A stretch of DNA of 64,000 bases from Gammaproteobacteria bacterium (GTDB lineage Bacteria > Pseudomonadota > Gammaproteobacteria > Steroidobacterales > Woeseiaceae): NCBI GenBank assembly GCA_003331585.1, contig QOPG01000002.1:1-64000 (forward strand), read 5' to 3'. Positions 29,935 to 39,228 of the stretch are shown in pieces. Within the stretch, counting starts at the first letter, position 1. Every line of letters begins with the position of its first letter. The position numbers and the translations under genes were made by a program. Under the pieces are notes generated by a model, which was not told the DNA's origin, did not search any database, and was given only the letters and a program-made list of their open reading frames with translations.

Positions 29935-31455
29935 ATGGCTCAACCTGCAAATGTAATAACACAAAATATTTTGCTTGACCGGCTTGAAGAAATGAGAAGC
30001 TATGGCGGGGAACGATTAACATTTGGAATAAGTAATAAAATCTTAACCAAATTTATCGAACATGATATCAACCTAAAAAAAGCGATTAATGATGCACACG
30101 AAAGATTCAACCTCTTAAAAAAAAGCCATCCTAAATTTCTGACTCTATGTGAAAATGATCAAATCAAAAAAGCACAGAACAGTATTGTAAACTTTTACGC
30201 AAAAGATATGGTTAATCCCTACGTCGCAATAGGTGCAATGGGACCATGGGTTATCTCATTGAAAGGTGCGGTAATCTATGACTGTGGTGGCTATGGTATG
30301 CTCGGTCTGGGGCATTCTCCTGAACTGGCCCTTAGTGCAATGAAAAGACCTCATGTGATGGCAAATATTATGACGCCTTCACTCAGTCAAATGGAATTCG
30401 TAAAAATCTTAAAAAAAGAAATCGGTCATACCAGAAAAGATAAAACTAATTTTTCGGATTTTTGTTGTCTAAATAGCGGATCTGAATCGGTCACTATTGC
30501 TGCTCGTTTAGCTGATGTAAATGCAAAAGAAATAACCTCAAAAGGAGCACTTCAAGAAGGGAAGAAAATCGCTAGATTAACACTTGCTGGCAGTTTCCAT
30601 GGAAGAACAGATCGACCAGCCCAATTTTCGGACTCAACAAGATCCAGTTACAAAAAACATCTCAAATCTTTCGAAAATAATAATGAATTGTTCACAGTTG
30701 AACCAAATGATATTGAAGGTCTAAAAAACGTTTTCGATCGGGCTGAAAAAGAGAATATATTTTTTGAAGCATTCTTTATGGAGCCAGTTATGGGTGAAGG
30801 TAATCCCGGACAAGCCATAACTCCAGAATTTTATGATACAGCAAGACTATTAACAAAAAGCACGGGAACATTACTTTTAATTGACTCCATTCAAGCAGGA
30901 TTGAGGGCACAAGGTGTATTATCGATCATTGATTATCCAGGTTTTGAAAACTCTGAATGTCCTGACATGGAAGCATATTCAAAAGCGTTAAATGCAGGTC
31001 AATATCCATTATCAGTATTAGCAATGAATGGAAAAGCAGCTGAACTATATAGATCAGGAATATATGGAAATACAATGACGAGCAATCCAAAAGCTCTAGA
31101 TGTCGCCACGGCTGTTATAGATTCGCTCGATCCTGAAATTCGAAAAAATATTCGTAATCGAGGAAAAGAGTTGACCGAAAAACTCAAGAAATTAGAAGAT
31201 GAATTGGGTAATGATATAACTAACGTTCAAGGAACGGGGCTTTTAGCTAGTTGCGAATTGAGTAATAAATTCAAATGTTGTGGCTCCGAAAGTACAGAAG
31301 AATACTTAAGAATAAATGGGCTTGGAGTAATACACGGTGGAATCAATTCATTAAGATATACCCCTTATTTTAAGATAACATCTGAAGAAGTTGATTTAAT
31401 TGTTGAGTTAACAAAAGATGCAATCCTAAATGGACCGAAAGCTCAAAATATCTGA
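29935..31455 (+). CDS. Class III aminotransferase with N-terminal extension
   Basis: This PLP enzyme is 506 residues, longer than the ~430 typical of class III. About 95 N-terminal residues precede the fold, which begins near NPYVAIGAMGPWV. Motifs are NSGSESV (180-186), SFHGRT (220-225), Asp317 in LLIDSIQ, and the PLP lysine Lys350 in YSKALNAGQ. It probably acts on an omega-amino group or a diamine, but the substrate is unknown. Its last 26 bp overlap the start of the cytochrome c gene, suggesting cotranscription with an electron-transfer protein. Confidence 0.85.
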   Translation: MAQPANVITQNILLDRLEEMRSYGGERLTFGISNKILTKFIEHDINLKKAINDAHERFNLLKKSHPKFLTLCENDQIKKAQNSIVNFYAKDMVNPYVAIGAMGPWVISLKGAVIYDCGGYGMLGLGHSPELALSAMKRPHVMANIMTPSLSQMEFVKILKKEIGHTRKDKTNFSDFCCLNSGSESVTIAARLADVNAKEITSKGALQEGKKIARLTLAGSFHGRTDRPAQFSDSTRSSYKKHLKSFENNNELFTVEPNDIEGLKNVFDRAEKENIFFEAFFMEPVMGEGNPGQAITPEFYDTARLLTKSTGTLLLIDSIQAGLRAQGVLSIIDYPGFENSECPDMEAYSKALNAGQYPLSVLAMNGKAAELYRSGIYGNTMTSNPKALDVATAVIDSLDPEIRKNIRNRGKELTEKLKKLEDELGNDITNVQGTGLLASCELSNKFKCCGSESTEEYLRINGLGVIHGGINSLRYTPYFKITSEEVDLIVELTKDAILNGPKAQNI

Positions 31456-31950: not shown

Positions 31951-33297
31951 ATGAAAAAATTAGTTCAATTTGATAGAAGATCATTTATAAAAGGCGCATC
32001 AATAGGTGCAGCAGCTGGCTCTTTGGCTAGCGTTACCAATATCGCTTCGGCAGCAGAAAAAAGACCTGGTGGAATGATAAATGGAAAATTTAATTTTGAT
32101 GAAATTTATGACCGAGATGGCACTGGGAATGTTAAATGGGATCAACAATACGGAAGATTTGGTGAAGAAAATGTTGATTTAGGGATGGGGGTTGCTGATA
32201 TGGACTTCAGAGGTGTTCCTGCTATTAAAGATGCTTTGGAAGATCGTATTCAACATAATAACTGGGGTTATGAAAATCTTACTAAATCCTACAAAGAAGC
32301 CATTGTTCAATGGAATGAAGAGAGACATGGTTATAAACTTGACCCGGATACAATAGTTATTTCGTCTGGTGTTCACACACCTCTTATTGCGACTCTGAAT
32401 GCAGTATGTCAACCACAAACCAAAGTGTTAATGAATACCCCAACATACAATGGGTTCTATGGCGATCTACTTTGGAGTAGAACTGTTGCAGCTGATAGCG
32501 AAATGTATAAAGATGAAGACGGTATCTATCATATCGATTGGGATGATTTTGAAGCTAAGATGACACCTGATTGTCACGCTTTCCTTTTGTGTAACCCGCA
32601 GAACCCAACTGGCAATATGTGGTCAGAAGATGATTTGATGAAAATGGGTGAGCTTTGCCTTAAACATGGCGTCACTGTTCTTGCTGATGAAATACACTGC
32701 GATTTTGTTATGGAAGGTAAAAAATATATTCCTTTCGCAAGTCTTCCAGACAAGGCTATTGTAAACAACAGCTTAACTTATAAAGCGGTCAGTAAAACAT
32801 TTAGCCTGGCGTCAATGAAGAGTGCTTATTTCTTTTCTACTAATCCCGTTCTCCTGGAACGAGTGAAGTATATGCACCGAGCTGATTTGAATTCGCTAGG
32901 AATTATAGCTAACGAAGCGGCCTACAGAAACGGTGGTGAATACTTTACCCAACTTAATGAATACATTGATGGAAATCAGACCTTTGCTGAAGCCTACATC
33001 AAAGAAAAAATGCCTGCAGTGAAATCCACAAAAGGTGAAGGTACCTATCTTCATTGGCTAGACATCAAAGAGGTTGCTGCAGCTGTTAATGCAGAACAAC
33101 ATGCTAAAGATAAAGGGATGAAAAGTGATTCGCATTATATGGAAGAATGGTTTGTTAAGAATGCTAAGGTACAGTTAAATCCAGGAGGAAACTATGGTAC
33201 TGGAGGTAATGGCCACATGAGGATGAATCTTGGTACTGCAAGACCGAATATTAAAAAAGCGATTGATAATATGGCTGCAGCTATAAAGAAAATCTAA
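31951..33297 (+). CDS. Tat-exported PatB/MalY-like PLP enzyme
   Basis: This is a 448-residue fold type I PLP enzyme with a twin-arginine signal (FDRRSFIKG, Arg9-Arg10, then an alanine-rich h-region to NIASAA). The mature part resembles the MalY/PatB cystathionine beta-lyase group: VDLGMGVADMDF, WGYENL, NPQNPTG (215-221), DEIHCDF (246-252) and Lys282 in AVSKTFSLASMKSAY. Export of a PLP enzyme is uncommon; Tat would carry it folded with cofactor. It may be a C-S lyase or aminotransferase. A bidirectional terminator follows. Confidence 0.85.
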   Translation: MKKLVQFDRRSFIKGASIGAAAGSLASVTNIASAAEKRPGGMINGKFNFDEIYDRDGTGNVKWDQQYGRFGEENVDLGMGVADMDFRGVPAIKDALEDRIQHNNWGYENLTKSYKEAIVQWNEERHGYKLDPDTIVISSGVHTPLIATLNAVCQPQTKVLMNTPTYNGFYGDLLWSRTVAADSEMYKDEDGIYHIDWDDFEAKMTPDCHAFLLCNPQNPTGNMWSEDDLMKMGELCLKHGVTVLADEIHCDFVMEGKKYIPFASLPDKAIVNNSLTYKAVSKTFSLASMKSAYFFSTNPVLLERVKYMHRADLNSLGIIANEAAYRNGGEYFTQLNEYIDGNQTFAEAYIKEKMPAVKSTKGEGTYLHWLDIKEVAAAVNAEQHAKDKGMKSDSHYMEEWFVKNAKVQLNPGGNYGTGGNGHMRMNLGTARPNIKKAIDNMAAAIKKI

Positions 33298-33312: not shown

Positions 33313-33349
33313 TAAAAAAAAGCATTTGCAAAATGCAAATGCTTTTTTT
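33313..33349. terminator. Bidirectional Rho-independent terminator
   Basis: A perfect 10-bp stem, AGCATTTGCA (33321-33330) with TGCAAATGCT (33334-33343), has a 3-nt loop. It is followed by a T-run to 33349 and preceded by an A-run from 33314. Either strand therefore has a stem followed by T residues. It sits between the convergent PatB-like gene and the M20-like gene and would end both transcripts. Confidence 0.9.
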
Positions 33350-33356
33350 ATGTAAA

Positions 33357-34706
33357 TTAAATAGACCAGCCGTCCACCGTATCGAATAAGACTGCTATTA
33401 GTTTCACCAAATCATCTATATCCACCCATTCATTCGGTCCATAGAAATTTCCACCTAATGAACCTATCCCATATGCAGGGACCCCTAGCAGGCGAATTGG
33501 ATATCGAATATCACCCGCGTAATGATTTGGATAGGATTTTGGTGCTATTCCAGTTATATCAGTTATTGACTCTCTTAGCACTAAACTCTCTTTTCCATTC
33601 CATCGTGCTTCACCTGGATTAGTTCGATAACCTTTAGCTAATATATGTATTTGGTATTTATTATTTTTTGATGAGATCTGATCAATAAACAATTGAGCTT
33701 CATTTTGAATTTTTCTGAGCAAATCGGCCCAATTATAATCAGCCTTAAATTTTAACCTAAAATTAATAGTAACTTTATCGGGTACTGATCCAATTCGATC
33801 TCCACCATTGAATTTTCCTACATTCATCTCTATTTCTTTTAGGATATCTTTCTTTAGATGATCCAAAAATCGCATTGAGGTATCTATAGCATCTCCTCCT
33901 TCTTTCCAATCAGATGAGTCTATACTGCCAATTTCCATCTGTGGTCCACGCCAGCCTCTAACCCGCATTTCCAGATCCAATACACCAAGAACTGCATTTT
34001 TAACATCCTCCAAACCTCTGCCAGTTTCTGCAGGATGAGCGTATAAAACAGACTGGATATTATGTTTTTGTTTTCTTATCCGCTCAAAAACAGGAAGACT
34101 TCCTCGACTACCACCACCTTTTCCATGAAGACTCATAACAACAGGTAGGGGTTTATCGTTCTCGCTTAAAATTCTTGCCGCAATCAGCATTGCAGCAACG
34201 CCGCCCTTGTCGTCGGACGTACCCAATCCATACATTCGATTTTTTTTAATGATTGGTTTATATGGGTCAGTTTCCCATCCTGCATCCTCAGAATGTGTAT
34301 CTATGTGCGAAAATATTGCTGATGTCTTTCTAGATGTTTTTTCAGGCCAGCCAACAATATTTATAAATGGCCCATCACTCTCTGGATTAGGTGGCATAAA
34401 TTCTGGATGATTCTGATATAAACTCGGCCTATCTGAAGACCTTTCTATCCTGTAGGGTAGATCACTGAGATAATTATTCACTAACGCCTGTGCTTCTTCT
34501 GCTGACTCACCTGTTTGGCTTCTGATAGTTATCAAATCACTAAGTAAGCTGATTAATTCCTCTCGTTTATTTTCTGCTAAATTGAGTGCGTTTGAAGATG
34601 CCGTCATAGCCTTTCCTTGAGAGAACGAACTTAAACCAACTGCAGTTAAACTTGAACCGACAATAAAATCTCTTCTTGATGACATGTTCTTTTTCTTTTG
34701 GCTCAT
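33357..34706 (-). CDS. Tat-exported M20-family peptidase-like protein with altered metal site
   Basis: This 449-residue protein has a twin-arginine signal (SSRRDFIVG, Arg11-Arg12). The M20 fold is recognisable: FSHIDTH (His134, Asp136), GLGTSDDKGGVAAML (Asp165/166), and a lid-like dimerisation domain around 230-350. Where M20 enzymes carry the catalytic Glu-Glu pair, this protein has HGKGGGSRGS (194-203). Near the C-terminus the usual AHTPNE with its zinc His reads FYGPNE (421-426). It may be inactive or use a different metal site. AAGGAG supports the ATG. It is the last gene of the hydantoinase operon. Confidence 0.82.
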   Translation of the reverse strand: MSQKKKNMSSRRDFIVGSSLTAVGLSSFSQGKAMTASSNALNLAENKREELISLLSDLITIRSQTGESAEEAQALVNNYLSDLPYRIERSSDRPSLYQNHPEFMPPNPESDGPFINIVGWPEKTSRKTSAIFSHIDTHSEDAGWETDPYKPIIKKNRMYGLGTSDDKGGVAAMLIAARILSENDKPLPVVMSLHGKGGGSRGSLPVFERIRKQKHNIQSVLYAHPAETGRGLEDVKNAVLGVLDLEMRVRGWRGPQMEIGSIDSSDWKEGGDAIDTSMRFLDHLKKDILKEIEMNVGKFNGGDRIGSVPDKVTINFRLKFKADYNWADLLRKIQNEAQLFIDQISSKNNKYQIHILAKGYRTNPGEARWNGKESLVLRESITDITGIAPKSYPNHYAGDIRYPIRLLGVPAYGIGSLGGNFYGPNEWVDIDDLVKLIAVLFDTVDGWSI

Positions 34707-34728: not shown

Positions 34729-35373
34729 TTATAAATTCATAATGGCATAATCGACAGATGCTTGAACAGGATCCAGTACAGTAATACCTAATAACTCTTC
34801 TAGAGAATCTCGATATCTTGCCATACCTGCACACCCCAGGATAATTATTTGCGCATCTTTTTCATCAATTAAATATTTACTCGCTTTTAAGATTTTATCC
34901 ATTGTGCTCTCTCCATTTACAGCTTCATCAACATCAATATCAAGACTCGTTTCACCTACATAGAATTTTTTTAAATTTAGTTTATCTATATATTTCTCGT
35001 GCCTAATGATTGAATCCTCTCCTAAAGCGATGACCCCAAAATTCTTTCTCTGATGATGGCAATATTTAACTGTGGTTTCATGGATACCATATATTGGGGC
35101 TGAAAATGCAAGAACTGATTCGCGAAGACCGGGGTCTGAATAACAAGCGATTATAAATGCGTCGAAGCTTGATAGTTTATTTTGTATTTTATTTAAGACC
35201 AGAGGTGCAACATTATTGATGTCTTCATCAGTTTCAATGCCGAATGGACCTTGTTTTAGTGAGATACAATCTACTTTCGTATTCTTTTTTTTTGGATAAT
35301 CAAGAAAAATAGCTGTCAGTTTGGTCGTAACATCTTCGTTCGAATTGGGGTTTATAACTAAAATTTTATACAT
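34729..35373 (-). CDS. Hydantoin racemase / Asp-Glu racemase family protein
   Basis: This 214-residue protein has two active-site cysteines, Cys77 (IIACYSDPGL) and Cys181 (ILGCAGMAR), as in hydantoin and allantoin racemases. VINPNSNEDVT begins the protein in the standard way. It would interconvert D- and L-forms of a 5-substituted hydantoin, or allantoin, for the neighbouring cyclic amidohydrolase. Its start overlaps the hydantoinase stop by 1 nt. A maleate isomerase or arylmalonate decarboxylase role is less likely. Confidence 0.87.
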   Translation of the reverse strand: MYKILVINPNSNEDVTTKLTAIFLDYPKKKNTKVDCISLKQGPFGIETDEDINNVAPLVLNKIQNKLSSFDAFIIACYSDPGLRESVLAFSAPIYGIHETTVKYCHHQRKNFGVIALGEDSIIRHEKYIDKLNLKKFYVGETSLDIDVDEAVNGESTMDKILKASKYLIDEKDAQIIILGCAGMARYRDSLEELLGITVLDPVQASVDYAIMNL

Positions 35374-36839
35374 TAAAAATTAATATCTACCCCAAAATTT
35401 TGATCTCGATCCAATTCAGGGGCTAAGCGACCTGGCATACCAGTGCAATCAATTTTTTTTCTATGAATAAACTCACCATCACCACGATTAACTTTGAGGG
35501 AATTATCCTCTATTACTACCTCCCCTCGTTGTATAACAATTTCAGGCCAACCTGTTATTTTCATCCCTTCATATGGCGTAAATTCCATATTGTCGTGCAG
35601 ATCTTTAGCTCTAATAATTCTTTTAGCTTTTGGATTCCAAATAGCGATATCGGCATCTTTACCTTCTGTTATCGATCCTTTTCGATGATCTAAACCATAA
35701 ATTTTAGAAACATTTGTGGCTGCAAGCGCGACAAAATGATTGAGAGAAATTCTTTTCTTCACAACCCCTTCTGAGAATAATAAAGGTAATCTGGTTTCAA
35801 TGCCCGGTAATCCATTTGCGATTTTGGTAAAAGGAGGTTTCTTGCCTGCATGTAGTTTTCCGCTTTCATCAAAACGATAAGGTGCATGATCAGAGGAATA
35901 TACCTGAAATGTTCCATTTTGCAGACAACGCCATATCTCCTCTTGAGATGCCATATCTCGTAATGGAGGGCTACAACAAAATTGAGCTCCATACATTTCT
36001 GGTAAATCCATATCATTTGCATTTAAAAACATATACTGAGGGCATGTTTCACCAAATACCTTATGTCCTTCGTAACGAGCTTGTGCAATGATTCTCGCGC
36101 CTGCTTCTGTAGATACATGCACGATCAATATAGGCGTATCAATGAAACTTGAAAGTGCGACAGCTCTATTTATCGCCTCAGATTCAGCTGTTCGAGGATG
36201 ACTGAGGGCATGGTACTTTGGTTCTTTATGTGATCCTTTGATTAGCTTTTCACTCATCCAGTTAATCATGGCATTATTTTCGGCATGAATCATAGTTAGG
36301 GCACCTAATTTTTTAGCTGCTGCCATAATTTCAAGCATTTGTTCGTCATTTACAATTAGCTTGTCATAGGTCATATAAATCTTAAAGGAAGTTACTCCTT
36401 GCTCAATGACATTTGGTAATTCAACCTTAATCGCCTCTTCGGTAGGATCTGAGATAATTAAATGAAAGGAATAATCAATGACCGATTTAGGTTTTGCTCT
36501 TGAATGATATAAATCGAGAACATCCTGTAACTTTTGCCCTCTATGTTGAGCCGCGAAAGGTATAATGCATGTATTCCCTCCAAATGCAGCTGAAACACTA
36601 CCAGAGTAATAATCGTCAGATGTCATAATGCCACCGGATGATTCTTGCTCAATGTGACAATGAGCCTCAATTCCACCAGGCAATACAAGCTGACCCTCTG
36701 CATCAATTATTTTTTTAGAATCGCCGATATTTTTACCGATCGCTACTATGATTCCATCTTTTATGCCAATATCCGATCTAAAGGTTTCAGTAGCATTCGC
36801 TATCGTCCCATTTATAATCTTTAAATCCAGTTTTTTCAT
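35373..36839 (-). CDS. Dihydropyrimidinase / D-hydantoinase
   Basis: This cyclic amidohydrolase opens hydantoins or 5,6-dihydropyrimidines. The start is taken as ATG at 36839, with AAGG at good spacing; a TTG two codons earlier is less likely. Numbered from this ATG, metal residues are His60 and His62 (AHCHIE), carboxylated Lys153 (SFKIYM), His185 (MIHAEN), His241 (VHVST) and Asp317 (SSDHAPY). It is 488 residues long. Substrate choice (hydantoin, dihydrouracil or allantoin) is open. The racemase gene next door favours a chiral hydantoin. Confidence 0.9.
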   Translation of the reverse strand: MKKLDLKIINGTIANATETFRSDIGIKDGIIVAIGKNIGDSKKIIDAEGQLVLPGGIEAHCHIEQESSGGIMTSDDYYSGSVSAAFGGNTCIIPFAAQHRGQKLQDVLDLYHSRAKPKSVIDYSFHLIISDPTEEAIKVELPNVIEQGVTSFKIYMTYDKLIVNDEQMLEIMAAAKKLGALTMIHAENNAMINWMSEKLIKGSHKEPKYHALSHPRTAESEAINRAVALSSFIDTPILIVHVSTEAGARIIAQARYEGHKVFGETCPQYMFLNANDMDLPEMYGAQFCCSPPLRDMASQEEIWRCLQNGTFQVYSSDHAPYRFDESGKLHAGKKPPFTKIANGLPGIETRLPLLFSEGVVKKRISLNHFVALAATNVSKIYGLDHRKGSITEGKDADIAIWNPKAKRIIRAKDLHDNMEFTPYEGMKITGWPEIVIQRGEVVIEDNSLKVNRGDGEFIHRKKIDCTGMPGRLAPELDRDQNFGVDINF

Positions 36840-36862
36840 CTTCAAGACCTTATAAAATAAAT

Positions 36863-37798
36863 CTAATTACCTTTTAAGCTTAGCTCTAAACGATCAATTA
36901 ACCTTATTAATTCTTTTTTATCCTCTGCACTTAAGCTTGGTCCAGGATCACGCGACTTCGATGAACTAATAGCACCTCGCCGTAATAATGTTTCTTTTCG
37001 AATTGCTAAACCCAGTCCTGGTTGTTGCTCATATCTAACATACGGAAGATAAATATCAAATAAATCTTCAGCCTCATCAATTCTCCCTTGTTTGTGCAAC
37101 TTTATTACTTCTACTAACATTTCAGGGTATGCAAAACCGGTCATTGCTCCATCAGCTCCCCTTTGCATTTCTTGAGGAAGAAATAAACCGCCGTTTCCAG
37201 TCAATACCGATACTCTACGAGTATCACCGTTATCGCTATGTTTTCGGAGCTTTGATAGTTTATTTAAACCAGGCCATTCTTCATGTTTAAACATTACCAC
37301 TTGATCATATTCTTCTATTATCTTATTGAAAGTGGCAACTGAAATTTCTGATTTCGTAAAAAAAGGATAGTCTTGATAACAGACTGGAATTCGATCATCC
37401 AATTTATCAAGAATATTAGTTAGATAATTATAAAGCTTTTCCTCTGTTCCAATCCCGGGAGGAGGAGCAATCATCACTCCCGCCGCATCATTATCCATAC
37501 TAAAATTAGATAAATCGATTAAATTATCGATACCAGGGTTTGATACACCAACAATAATAGGCACTCTTTGATTAACTTGCTTTAATACCGTATTCAAAAA
37601 AAGTTTCGATTCTTCTATCGTCAGTTTAGGCGCTTCCCCCATAACACCTAATACAGTAATTCCATCCACACCTTTTTCTAGATAGAAATCAACAAGTTTT
37701 TTTGTACTTTCGAGATCAAGTTCGCCAGAATCCTTAAATGGTGTAGCTGAAATGATATAGACTCCCTCAGCAGTTTCATCAAGTTTGTTGTATAACAT
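36863..37798 (-). CDS. DapA/NanA-family aldolase or dehydratase
   Basis: This TIM-barrel Schiff-base enzyme has 311 residues. Lys171 in VMFKHEEWPG would form the Schiff base. Tyr141 (VCYQDYP) is at the catalytic tyrosine position, and GVMGEAPKLT (51-60) is the carboxylate-binding loop. True DapA usually has GTTGE, so it is more likely a catabolic family member (pyruvate- or 2-oxoacid-forming) than a lysine biosynthetic enzyme. It lies 23 nt after the symporter gene and 23 nt before the hydantoinase ATG, inside the same operon. Confidence 0.85.
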   Translation of the reverse strand: MLYNKLDETAEGVYIISATPFKDSGELDLESTKKLVDFYLEKGVDGITVLGVMGEAPKLTIEESKLFLNTVLKQVNQRVPIIVGVSNPGIDNLIDLSNFSMDNDAAGVMIAPPPGIGTEEKLYNYLTNILDKLDDRIPVCYQDYPFFTKSEISVATFNKIIEEYDQVVMFKHEEWPGLNKLSKLRKHSDNGDTRRVSVLTGNGGLFLPQEMQRGADGAMTGFAYPEMLVEVIKLHKQGRIDEAEDLFDIYLPYVRYEQQPGLGLAIRKETLLRRGAISSSKSRDPGPSLSAEDKKELIRLIDRLELSLKGN

Positions 37799-37821: not shown

Positions 37822-39228
37822 CTATGATTTCTTTATGTATTTTTTTGATTCATCTATTAACTTAGTTTCGTATTTCATTTTCCCAGAAATATAATCTTGC
37901 ATTAAATTTATAAATACTCCACTTAAAAACAACAACGCAACTAAGTTTGGTATGGCGCTCACTGCAACAGAAATATTTGCTAATTGCCATAATTGATCAA
38001 CATTTGTTATCCCAGCAAAAATTATTCCAGGAAGAAAATATATCCATTTAATTATTCTAAATATTTTTTTACCAACTAATTCTGTAAGAGCTGTCTTGAA
38101 ATATATAAAAAAACCAATCTGAGTGGATAAACAAAAAGTTGTAATCGCAACTGATATAATTATGCTTGCAGTTGCCGTTGAATAATAACTGGAAAATCCA
38201 TCCAATAATAGCTCAATTCCTGAATTTCCACCTGCCAAAACGCCGCTAGATAAAATAACTACAGCTGTTATTGTGCAAACTAACGTAGTGTCAAAAAATA
38301 CCTCAGCTGCACCCCATAACCCCTGTTGAAATGGATGCTTTGTTTCAGCATTTGCATGCACCATTGGAGCAGTTCCCAACCCTGCTTCATTAGATAACAT
38401 ACCTCTAGCCATGCCCATTTGTATAGCCATCATTATTGAAGCGCCGGCAAAACCTCCAACTGCTGGTGCAGGAGAAAAAGCATAGCTTAGGATTTGCATA
38501 AATACTTCAGGAAGACTTTCAATATTGGCAAAAAATATAATTAACCCAAACCCTAGATACAATAGAGTCATTAACGGTACTAGTGCCTCGCAAAATTTTC
38601 CTATCCTCCTCACACCACCGATTGTTACAACCATCGTGACAAAAGCCATAAGTGATGTTGTTAGGTATGGGTTAATATTATAACTGGCATCCAATGCACG
38701 TCCTACAGTATGAGCCTGCAACAAAGATGAAGTGAAAATACAATTAATGGTAATGCCCAAACTGAATAAGATAGCCAAAAACCTCCATCCAAGTGCTTTT
38801 TTTATATAAAGCATTGGTCCACCAAAAATATCGCCATTGTCGTCTACTTCCCTATAATGTATGGCGAGAGTAATCTCAGCGGCTTTTGTGATCATTCCGA
38901 ATAAGGCCAGTACCCACATCCAAAAAATTGCTCCTGGCCCTCCAATCGATAGAGCGGTAGCAACACCAGCCATGTTCCCCATGCCAACTGTTCCGGCGAG
39001 TGATGTAGAGGTGGCTTGAAAAGGCGAGATAGTATTTTTTTCTCTGATATCTGAACGCTGAAATACTTTCAAAAAAGTCTCAGAAAAAATATATCTAAAA
39101 TTAGATAGTTGAAAAAACCGACTTTTAAATGTAAGAAATATCGACACGAATGCAATAAAGCACATTGTCCAAGGACCCCAGAGAAAAGCATCCAAATTAC
39201 TTGCTGCATTAAAAAAGATATCCCACAT
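37822..39228 (-). CDS. AGCS-family Na+:alanine/glycine symporter-like permease
   Basis: This 468-residue protein has about 10-11 membrane helices. The family signature GTVGMGNMAGVATALSIGGPGAIFWMWVLALFGMITKAAE is at ~74-115, and GMARGMLSNEAGLGTAPMVHA near 275-295 is equally diagnostic. It couples sodium to the uptake of small amino acids. As first gene of the five-gene operon it probably imports the substrate or a product of the hydantoinase system. The 206-bp gap upstream separates it from the divergent PQQ dehydrogenase. Confidence 0.9.
   Translation of the reverse strand: MWDIFFNAASNLDAFLWGPWTMCFIAFVSIFLTFKSRFFQLSNFRYIFSETFLKVFQRSDIREKNTISPFQATSTSLAGTVGMGNMAGVATALSIGGPGAIFWMWVLALFGMITKAAEITLAIHYREVDDNGDIFGGPMLYIKKALGWRFLAILFSLGITINCIFTSSLLQAHTVGRALDASYNINPYLTTSLMAFVTMVVTIGGVRRIGKFCEALVPLMTLLYLGFGLIIFFANIESLPEVFMQILSYAFSPAPAVGGFAGASIMMAIQMGMARGMLSNEAGLGTAPMVHANAETKHPFQQGLWGAAEVFFDTTLVCTITAVVILSSGVLAGGNSGIELLLDGFSSYYSTATASIIISVAITTFCLSTQIGFFIYFKTALTELVGKKIFRIIKWIYFLPGIIFAGITNVDQLWQLANISVAVSAIPNLVALLFLSGVFINLMQDYISGKMKYETKLIDESKKYIKKS

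Follow-up and report, generated by a model that had tools for sequence, protein, structure and literature searches.

Few hydrolase families are annotated as widely as M20, and M20 chemistry is normally abolished when the general base is lost. In the catalytic domain of Vibrio DapE, Zn1 is held by H68, D101 and E164, and Zn2 by a His, D101 and E136 (PMC4012986); the Zn2 His is H349 in Haemophilus DapE (PMC4320195), and Glu134 is the proposed base (PMC5919655). DapE carrying one Zn keeps > 60% of its activity (PMC5919655), and the His355Ala substitution in ArgE causes a 380-fold loss with Co and leaves no detectable activity with Zn (PMC4320195). Here we describe an M20-like protein, M20L, which is an M20 by fold and profile but departs from canonical M20 hydrolases in the catalytic residues that define them. 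Probably it is an exported enzyme that has been re-tooled, not one in decay.

The window, a stretch of 64,000 nucleotides from a Woeseiaceae genome, encodes M20L as a protein of 449 residues with an ATG start (Table 1). It is a member of the M20 fold superfamily, with matches to Pfam Peptidase_M20 (PF01546; 76.5 bits, E 3.4e-21, cut-off 24.6) and M20_dimer (PF07687; 33.8 bits, E 3.4e-8, cut-off 21). The top NCBIfam model, TIGR01910 (ArgE/DapE), scored 101.2 bits, under its curated cut-off of 217.6. An AF2 model built from 39 homologues had a mean pLDDT of 87.5 and a pTM of 0.83, and very low confidence was confined to residues 1-34, as expected of a signal peptide. Foldseek matched the model to DapE, ArgE, carboxypeptidase G2 (CPG2) and a putative acetylornithine deacetylase (3pfo) at E < 1e-21, with TMt values of up to 0.80 against DapE, ArgE and CPG2. 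Neither the M20 fold nor the dimerisation domain is disrupted in the model.

Table 1. Features of the M20L locus, in window coordinates.
Feature	Coordinates	Strand	Basis
M20-like protein (M20L), 449 aa	33357..34706	minus	ORF; PF01546/PF07687; AF2 model; Foldseek
HGKGGGSRGS, residues 194-203, in place of the Glu-Glu motif (G195 = Glu134, K196 = Glu135 of DapE)	34098..34127	minus	Alignments
HPAETG, residues 224-229; H224 at the position of Zn1 ligand Glu163, E227 invariant	34020..34037	minus	Alignments
FYGPNE, residues 421-426; Y422 at the position of Zn2 ligand His349	33429..33446	minus	Alignments
AGCS sodium:amino-acid symporter, first gene of the operon	37822..39228	minus	PF01235 E 3e-114; TIGR00835
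DHDPS-family aldolase/lyase-like protein	36863..37798	minus	PF00701 E 1.9e-27
D-hydantoinase/dihydropyrimidinase	35373..36845	minus	NF009941 723 bits (cut-off 647); TIGR02033 546 bits (cut-off 393)
Asp/Glu/hydantoin racemase, upstream of M20L within one operon, separated by 22 bp	34729..35373	minus	PF01177 E 3.4e-43
Inverted repeat AAGCATTTGC..GCAAATGCTT, T/A runs at flanks	33314..33348		Direct sequence reading

The comparison set for M20L and its homologues comprised 37 M20 proteins, taken from related genomes and from genomes that carry a homologue, and PDB chains aligned by profile. In DapE numbering, His67 corresponds to H134, Asp69 to D136, Asp100 to D165, Glu134 to G195, Glu135 to K196, Glu163 to H224 and His349 to Y422. 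The first-pass annotation of this gene, made by eye, had claimed that HGKGGGSRGS at 194-203 stands where other M20s have their catalytic Glu pair and that a C-terminal zinc His is missing. Both losses were confirmed: the motif lies where it was placed, an ungapped alignment sets the Glu-Glu, present in 37/37 comparators, on G195-K196, and the zinc His aligns with Y422 of FYGPNE. The alignment did not place an intact Glu-Glu and His at the metal site, the finding named beforehand as one that would overturn the claim. A displaced Glu-Glu was also considered, and the protein has none: residues 189-205 align without gaps between the strand at 189-193 and G202, and E208 varies among homologues.

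The Zn1-type positions remain, as H134, D165 and H224. H134 and D136, which the annotation had listed as retained, are found in 54/54 homologues, and so is D165, which aligns as the bridging Asp; its companion in that list, D166, aligns instead with the Met or Asp that follows in other M20s. We found one further replacement that had gone unmentioned, that of Zn1 ligand Glu163 by H224. Catalytic M20s carry Glu or Asp at this third-ligand position, or His in the HyuC type, and H224 is HyuC-like, not DapE-like. The dimer-domain His194 of DapE is without a conserved counterpart, position 255 of M20L being E, P, R, A or T. Read against the ligand sets of Vibrio DapE (PMC4012986), the losses in M20L fall on Zn2 and the base.

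Conservation of the altered residues was assessed over 54 sequences, 51 of them distinct, from at least four phyla. The 49 invariant columns include H134, D136, D165, D166, K167, H194, G195, K196, G198, G199, G202 and P205 in the first part of the protein, and H224, E227, K236, E258, S264, N363, H395, D399, R401, R405, F421, E426 and W427 further on; position 422 is Tyr in 53/54 and Cys in one (L091). Mean column entropy is 0.34-0.45 bits in segments 190-205, 222-231, 395-405 and 419-428, as against 1.54 across the mature protein. The replacement residues are thus far from a chance pattern, being identical in all 54 homologues or, for Y422, in 53. Whether homologues conserve HGKGGGSRGS had been proposed as a check; H194, G195, K196, G198, G199 and G202 do not vary, and the pattern HGKxGG..G(S/T)LP holds without change in several phyla. 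The gene evolves under purifying selection, with dN/dS at about 0.06-0.2 in same-genus pairs (a rough estimate, dS being close to saturated in most), and the earlier description of a defined motif rather than decay is strongly supported. Placed among other M20s in a tree, the M20L clade has 100/100 support, with 44 members on one side and a long stem. A clade profile run on ten genomes gave the M20L member > 500 bits and the next M20 <= 64 bits, and genomes carry about one copy. These are the marks of a separate subfamily whose alternative site is fixed, and not of a gene in decay.

M20L is carried by 13/101 genomes of the window's own family, and among 274 sampled genomes of its class only by the window genome. 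When 84,980 species genomes were scanned, 40 loci were found: in Woeseiaceae, in Bacteroidota including Maribacter, in Acidobacteria and Acidimicrobiia, and in one MAG each under the labels Dehalococcoidia and Alphaproteobacteria. In the class of one Acidobacteria genome it was present in 16/193, including a divergent set without a Tat signal (L083-L091). Mobile spread was considered and set aside: plasmids gave zero matches at E 1e-20, viral contigs held no relative, and phage records yielded merely ordinary DapE or short matches. A near-identity DNA search of E. coli found no relative. The two MAG loci (L038 and L039) have almost identical gene order; probably one of the bins carries a wrong label or is contaminated. 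In Maribacter halichondriae a short broken second piece of M20L, 62% identical and with stops, lies ~3 kb downstream of the intact gene (L022:13267-13392).

The annotation had also proposed a Tat-type signal and a location outside the cytosol. A twin-arginine motif, SRRDFIVGSS, is indeed present at the N-terminus of the window protein, from which export is predicted. The proposed location is in keeping with this motif and with its counterparts in ~70% of homologues (38/54), and does not extend to the two most divergent clades (L047-L053 and L083-L091), from which the motif is absent. Export is therefore not family-defining.

In the window, M20L is the last gene of an operon that runs from an AGCS symporter through a DHDPS-like gene, a D-hydantoinase and a hydantoin racemase, with gaps of 17-23 bp or a 1-bp overlap. 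This arrangement is that of the window genus and of one further Woeseiaceae-type genome (L030), and the order is kept in L015-L019, L023 and L030. By eye, the hydantoinase retains its metal motifs (HxH, Lys, His, His, Asp) and the racemase both Cys residues, so the rest of the operon appears functional. Neither of these two proteins has a signal peptide, and M20L has one. The inverted repeat beyond M20L is likely a terminator common to convergent genes. The convergent gene (31951-33297, plus strand), which adjoins M20L in most of the window genus, encodes a PatB-like (C-S lyase type) PLP aminotransferase with the twin-arginine signal DRRSFIKG and is apparently exported as well. Beyond it lies a class-III aminotransferase of 506 aa (29935-31455, plus strand), whose N-terminal part is longer than in ArgD-type models and whose scores fall far under all NCBIfam cut-offs.

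Hydantoin-related genes recur in the most distant clade. In Acidimicrobiia (L047-L054), M20L has as divergent neighbours HyuB, HyuA and one or two Amidohydro_1 genes, at 240 bp in L053. Each of these genomes holds 7-10 HyuB genes, which makes the neighbourhood weaker evidence; we estimate that adjacency in one clade would arise by chance at ~4%. No HyuC-type carbamoylase above cut-off was found in four window-genus genomes or two Acidimicrobiia genomes. CN-hydrolases are present, and another kind of carbamoylase may exist.

In the Acidobacteria class, the eight loci L122-L129 have TRAP DctM and DctP genes directly upstream of M20L, and in 6/8 one or two M24-family genes follow it, with another beyond on the opposite strand; the D/D/H/E/E residues of these M24 proteins are intact by alignment. 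The single HyuB of genome G406 is about 8 kb distant from M20L. Members of the same M24 subfamily, 66-76% identical, lie near M20L in L024, which additionally has a DHDPS-family gene and TRAP genes, and in L026, with weaker relatives in L038/L039. This subfamily, of the creatinase/aminopeptidase P fold, thus recurs beside M20L in several phyla (L122-L124, L127-L129, L024, L026, L038 and L039); its members are apparently exported and have weak Pfam scores and intact metal residues. CitMHS transporters adjoin M20L in L130/L131. Many Tat-bearing members lie outside any recognisable catabolic cluster (L020, L025, L031-L036, L041-L046). Pairing with an active M20 partner was rejected as a general arrangement, since among the scanned neighbours a canonical M20 adjoins M20L only in L020.

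A family of 550-570 aa proteins is encoded close to M20L in four genomes (L020:6790-8463, L021:7236-8897, L028:4027-5676 and L039:5761-7464), and its L020 copy has no Pfam match. Three conserved large ORFs near homologues were discarded: N27, which matches nothing in Pfam, lies in GC-rich DNA across genes with better support, N4 overlaps TRAP and M20L genes on the opposite strand, and N7 by eye resembles glycosyltransferase/pyruvyltransferase genes.

Strict conservation across the clade, together with hydantoin-breakdown genes beside M20L in distant bacteria, makes it likely that the protein was re-tooled and did not decay. Our preferred reading, held tentatively at a little under an even chance, is that M20L is a re-tooled one-metal M20 amide/ureide hydrolase in hydantoin-type catabolism. 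The dinuclear zinc site would have been exchanged for a new fixed site, with one divalent metal at the Zn1 position held by H134, D165 and H224. K196 stands at the position of a ligand of the second metal, where the Lys ammonium could replace the second cation, and Y422 would substitute for the second metal's His. With Glu134 gone the base must be new, and proton transfer may have moved to another invariant residue, for which E227, H194 and H395 are candidates. A single bound metal is plausible given the His at the third position in HyuC-type enzymes, the activity of mono-zinc DapE and the existence of mono-zinc DapE structures. The first-pass annotation had offered a one-metal enzyme as one of its options, and this is the option we favour, given the kept Zn1-type positions and the mono-zinc activity of DapE (PMC5919655).

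The substrate would be a small amide- or ureide-type compound met in the scavenging of hydantoins or other cyclic amides. In the window organism a periplasmic M20L step might be followed by AGCS uptake and then by the cytoplasmic racemase, hydantoinase and aldolase; in clades that lack the signal, the M20L step would be cytoplasmic and follow uptake. These clades have M20L beside an importer (TRAP) or HyuA/B; on a simple reading, the step could either precede or follow uptake. Several observations weigh against the preferred reading. The hydantoinase and racemase of the window lack a signal and M20L has one, which does not place them in one compartment; the base is lost, the ArgE His355Ala mutant is severely impaired, M20L does not retain the dimer-domain His194 of DapE, and many members lie outside catabolic clusters. 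A broader proposal, that the rebuilt pocket (H134, D165, H194, K196, H224, E227, H395, Y422) carries out a reaction new to the M20 fold, serving hydantoin/cyclic-amide breakdown in several phyla from periplasm or cytoplasm, is conceivable and we consider it doubtful.

With the base, both ligands exclusive to Zn2 and the dimer-domain His all lost, M20L could instead be a non-catalytic M20 pseudoenzyme, an exported or cytosolic binding or accessory protein that captures a pathway substrate or metal without turnover. Pseudoenzymes can be strictly conserved, and most metallopeptidase families include inactive homologues (PMC11266112). We nonetheless judge this unlikely: every motif keeps chemically reactive residues (H194, K196, H224, E227 and H395) across the 54 proteins, M20L sits among catabolic-cluster enzymes and transporters with no active M20 partner outside L020, and capture is already performed by DctP-type binding proteins where these are present. 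The binding protein that the first-pass annotation had listed is likewise made less likely by the operon contexts.

The exact placement of K196 at a metal-ligand position, and its invariance along with that of H194 and the glycine-rich loop, would also suit a metal-free or lysine-based chemistry in which K196 serves as a nucleophile, as acid/base or as a (carbamylated) ligand, for example in a lyase, isomerase or ring-opening reaction on a hydantoin-like compound. Hydantoin contexts in two distant branches are compatible with such a role. Retention of the ligand-competent H134, D165 and H224 would be unexpected in a metal-free enzyme, and we think this reading quite improbable. We give as little credence to a rebuilt dinuclear site, in which H194, H395, E227 or Y422 would stand in for E135, H349 or E134 and M20L would be a functionally ordinary M20 hydrolase. 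Four extra conserved candidate ligands do occur in motifs that line the M20 cleft, and the Cys that replaces Tyr in L091 is itself a possible ligand; against this, the central position of K196 would repel a second cation, and the ligand roles are those suggested by alignment. That a normal M20 gene has decayed, been misassembled or suffered a frameshift, for which only the absence of canonical residues speaks, was rejected: the open frame is intact, dN/dS is low, and the same motifs recur in independent genomes of several phyla.

Proteins of the M20L clade are called M20 peptidases by profile despite missing residues that the mechanism requires. In place of the residues for base and second metal they have a fixed Lys/His/Tyr set, kept across several phyla and found with hydantoin genes, and the clade offers a clean natural experiment in the rewiring of a dinuclear hydrolase site. 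M20L may supply a missing step in the hydantoin-type catabolism of marine bacteria. A search of the open-access literature found no account of M20 proteins with this motif, and a review of pseudopeptidases does not treat M20; as far as that search went, the branch is previously undescribed.

Among known systems, the TIGR01910 ArgE/DapE deacylases are the closest. They give the best sequence and fold matches and share with M20L the two-domain fold, HxD, DxKGG and an NE-type C-terminal loop; M20L departs from them in having Gly, Lys, Tyr and His for the catalytic Glu, both Zn2-only ligands and the Zn1 Glu, in lacking the dimer-domain His, in scoring far under the family cut-off and in being often exported. 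The 5-nitroanthranilate aminohydrolase (PDB 5k8m-5k8p) is a mononuclear-metal enzyme with non-peptidase chemistry. Its M20-like fold was within the top 50 Foldseek matches, at an identity of only 16-18%. HyuC-type N-carbamoyl amino acid amidohydrolases and allantoate amidohydrolases (TIGR01879) resemble M20L in using His as third ligand (ELHIEQG versus AHPAETG in M20L). HyuC often accompanies hydantoin racemase and hydantoinases, and M20L is found with the same genes. Unlike M20L, however, HyuC-type proteins keep the Glu-Glu and the C-terminal His, and membership of that group was rejected, as M20L had no reported TIGR01879 match (cut-off 204 bits) in six genomes and is separate from HyuC in the tree. 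The locus as a whole recalls hydantoin-utilisation operons, which combine hydantoinase, racemase and carbamoylase: a hydantoinase and a racemase lie directly upstream of M20L, and HyuA/HyuB lie near its most distant homologues. It differs from them in that the place of the carbamoylase is occupied by M20L, which in the window organism bears a Tat signal.
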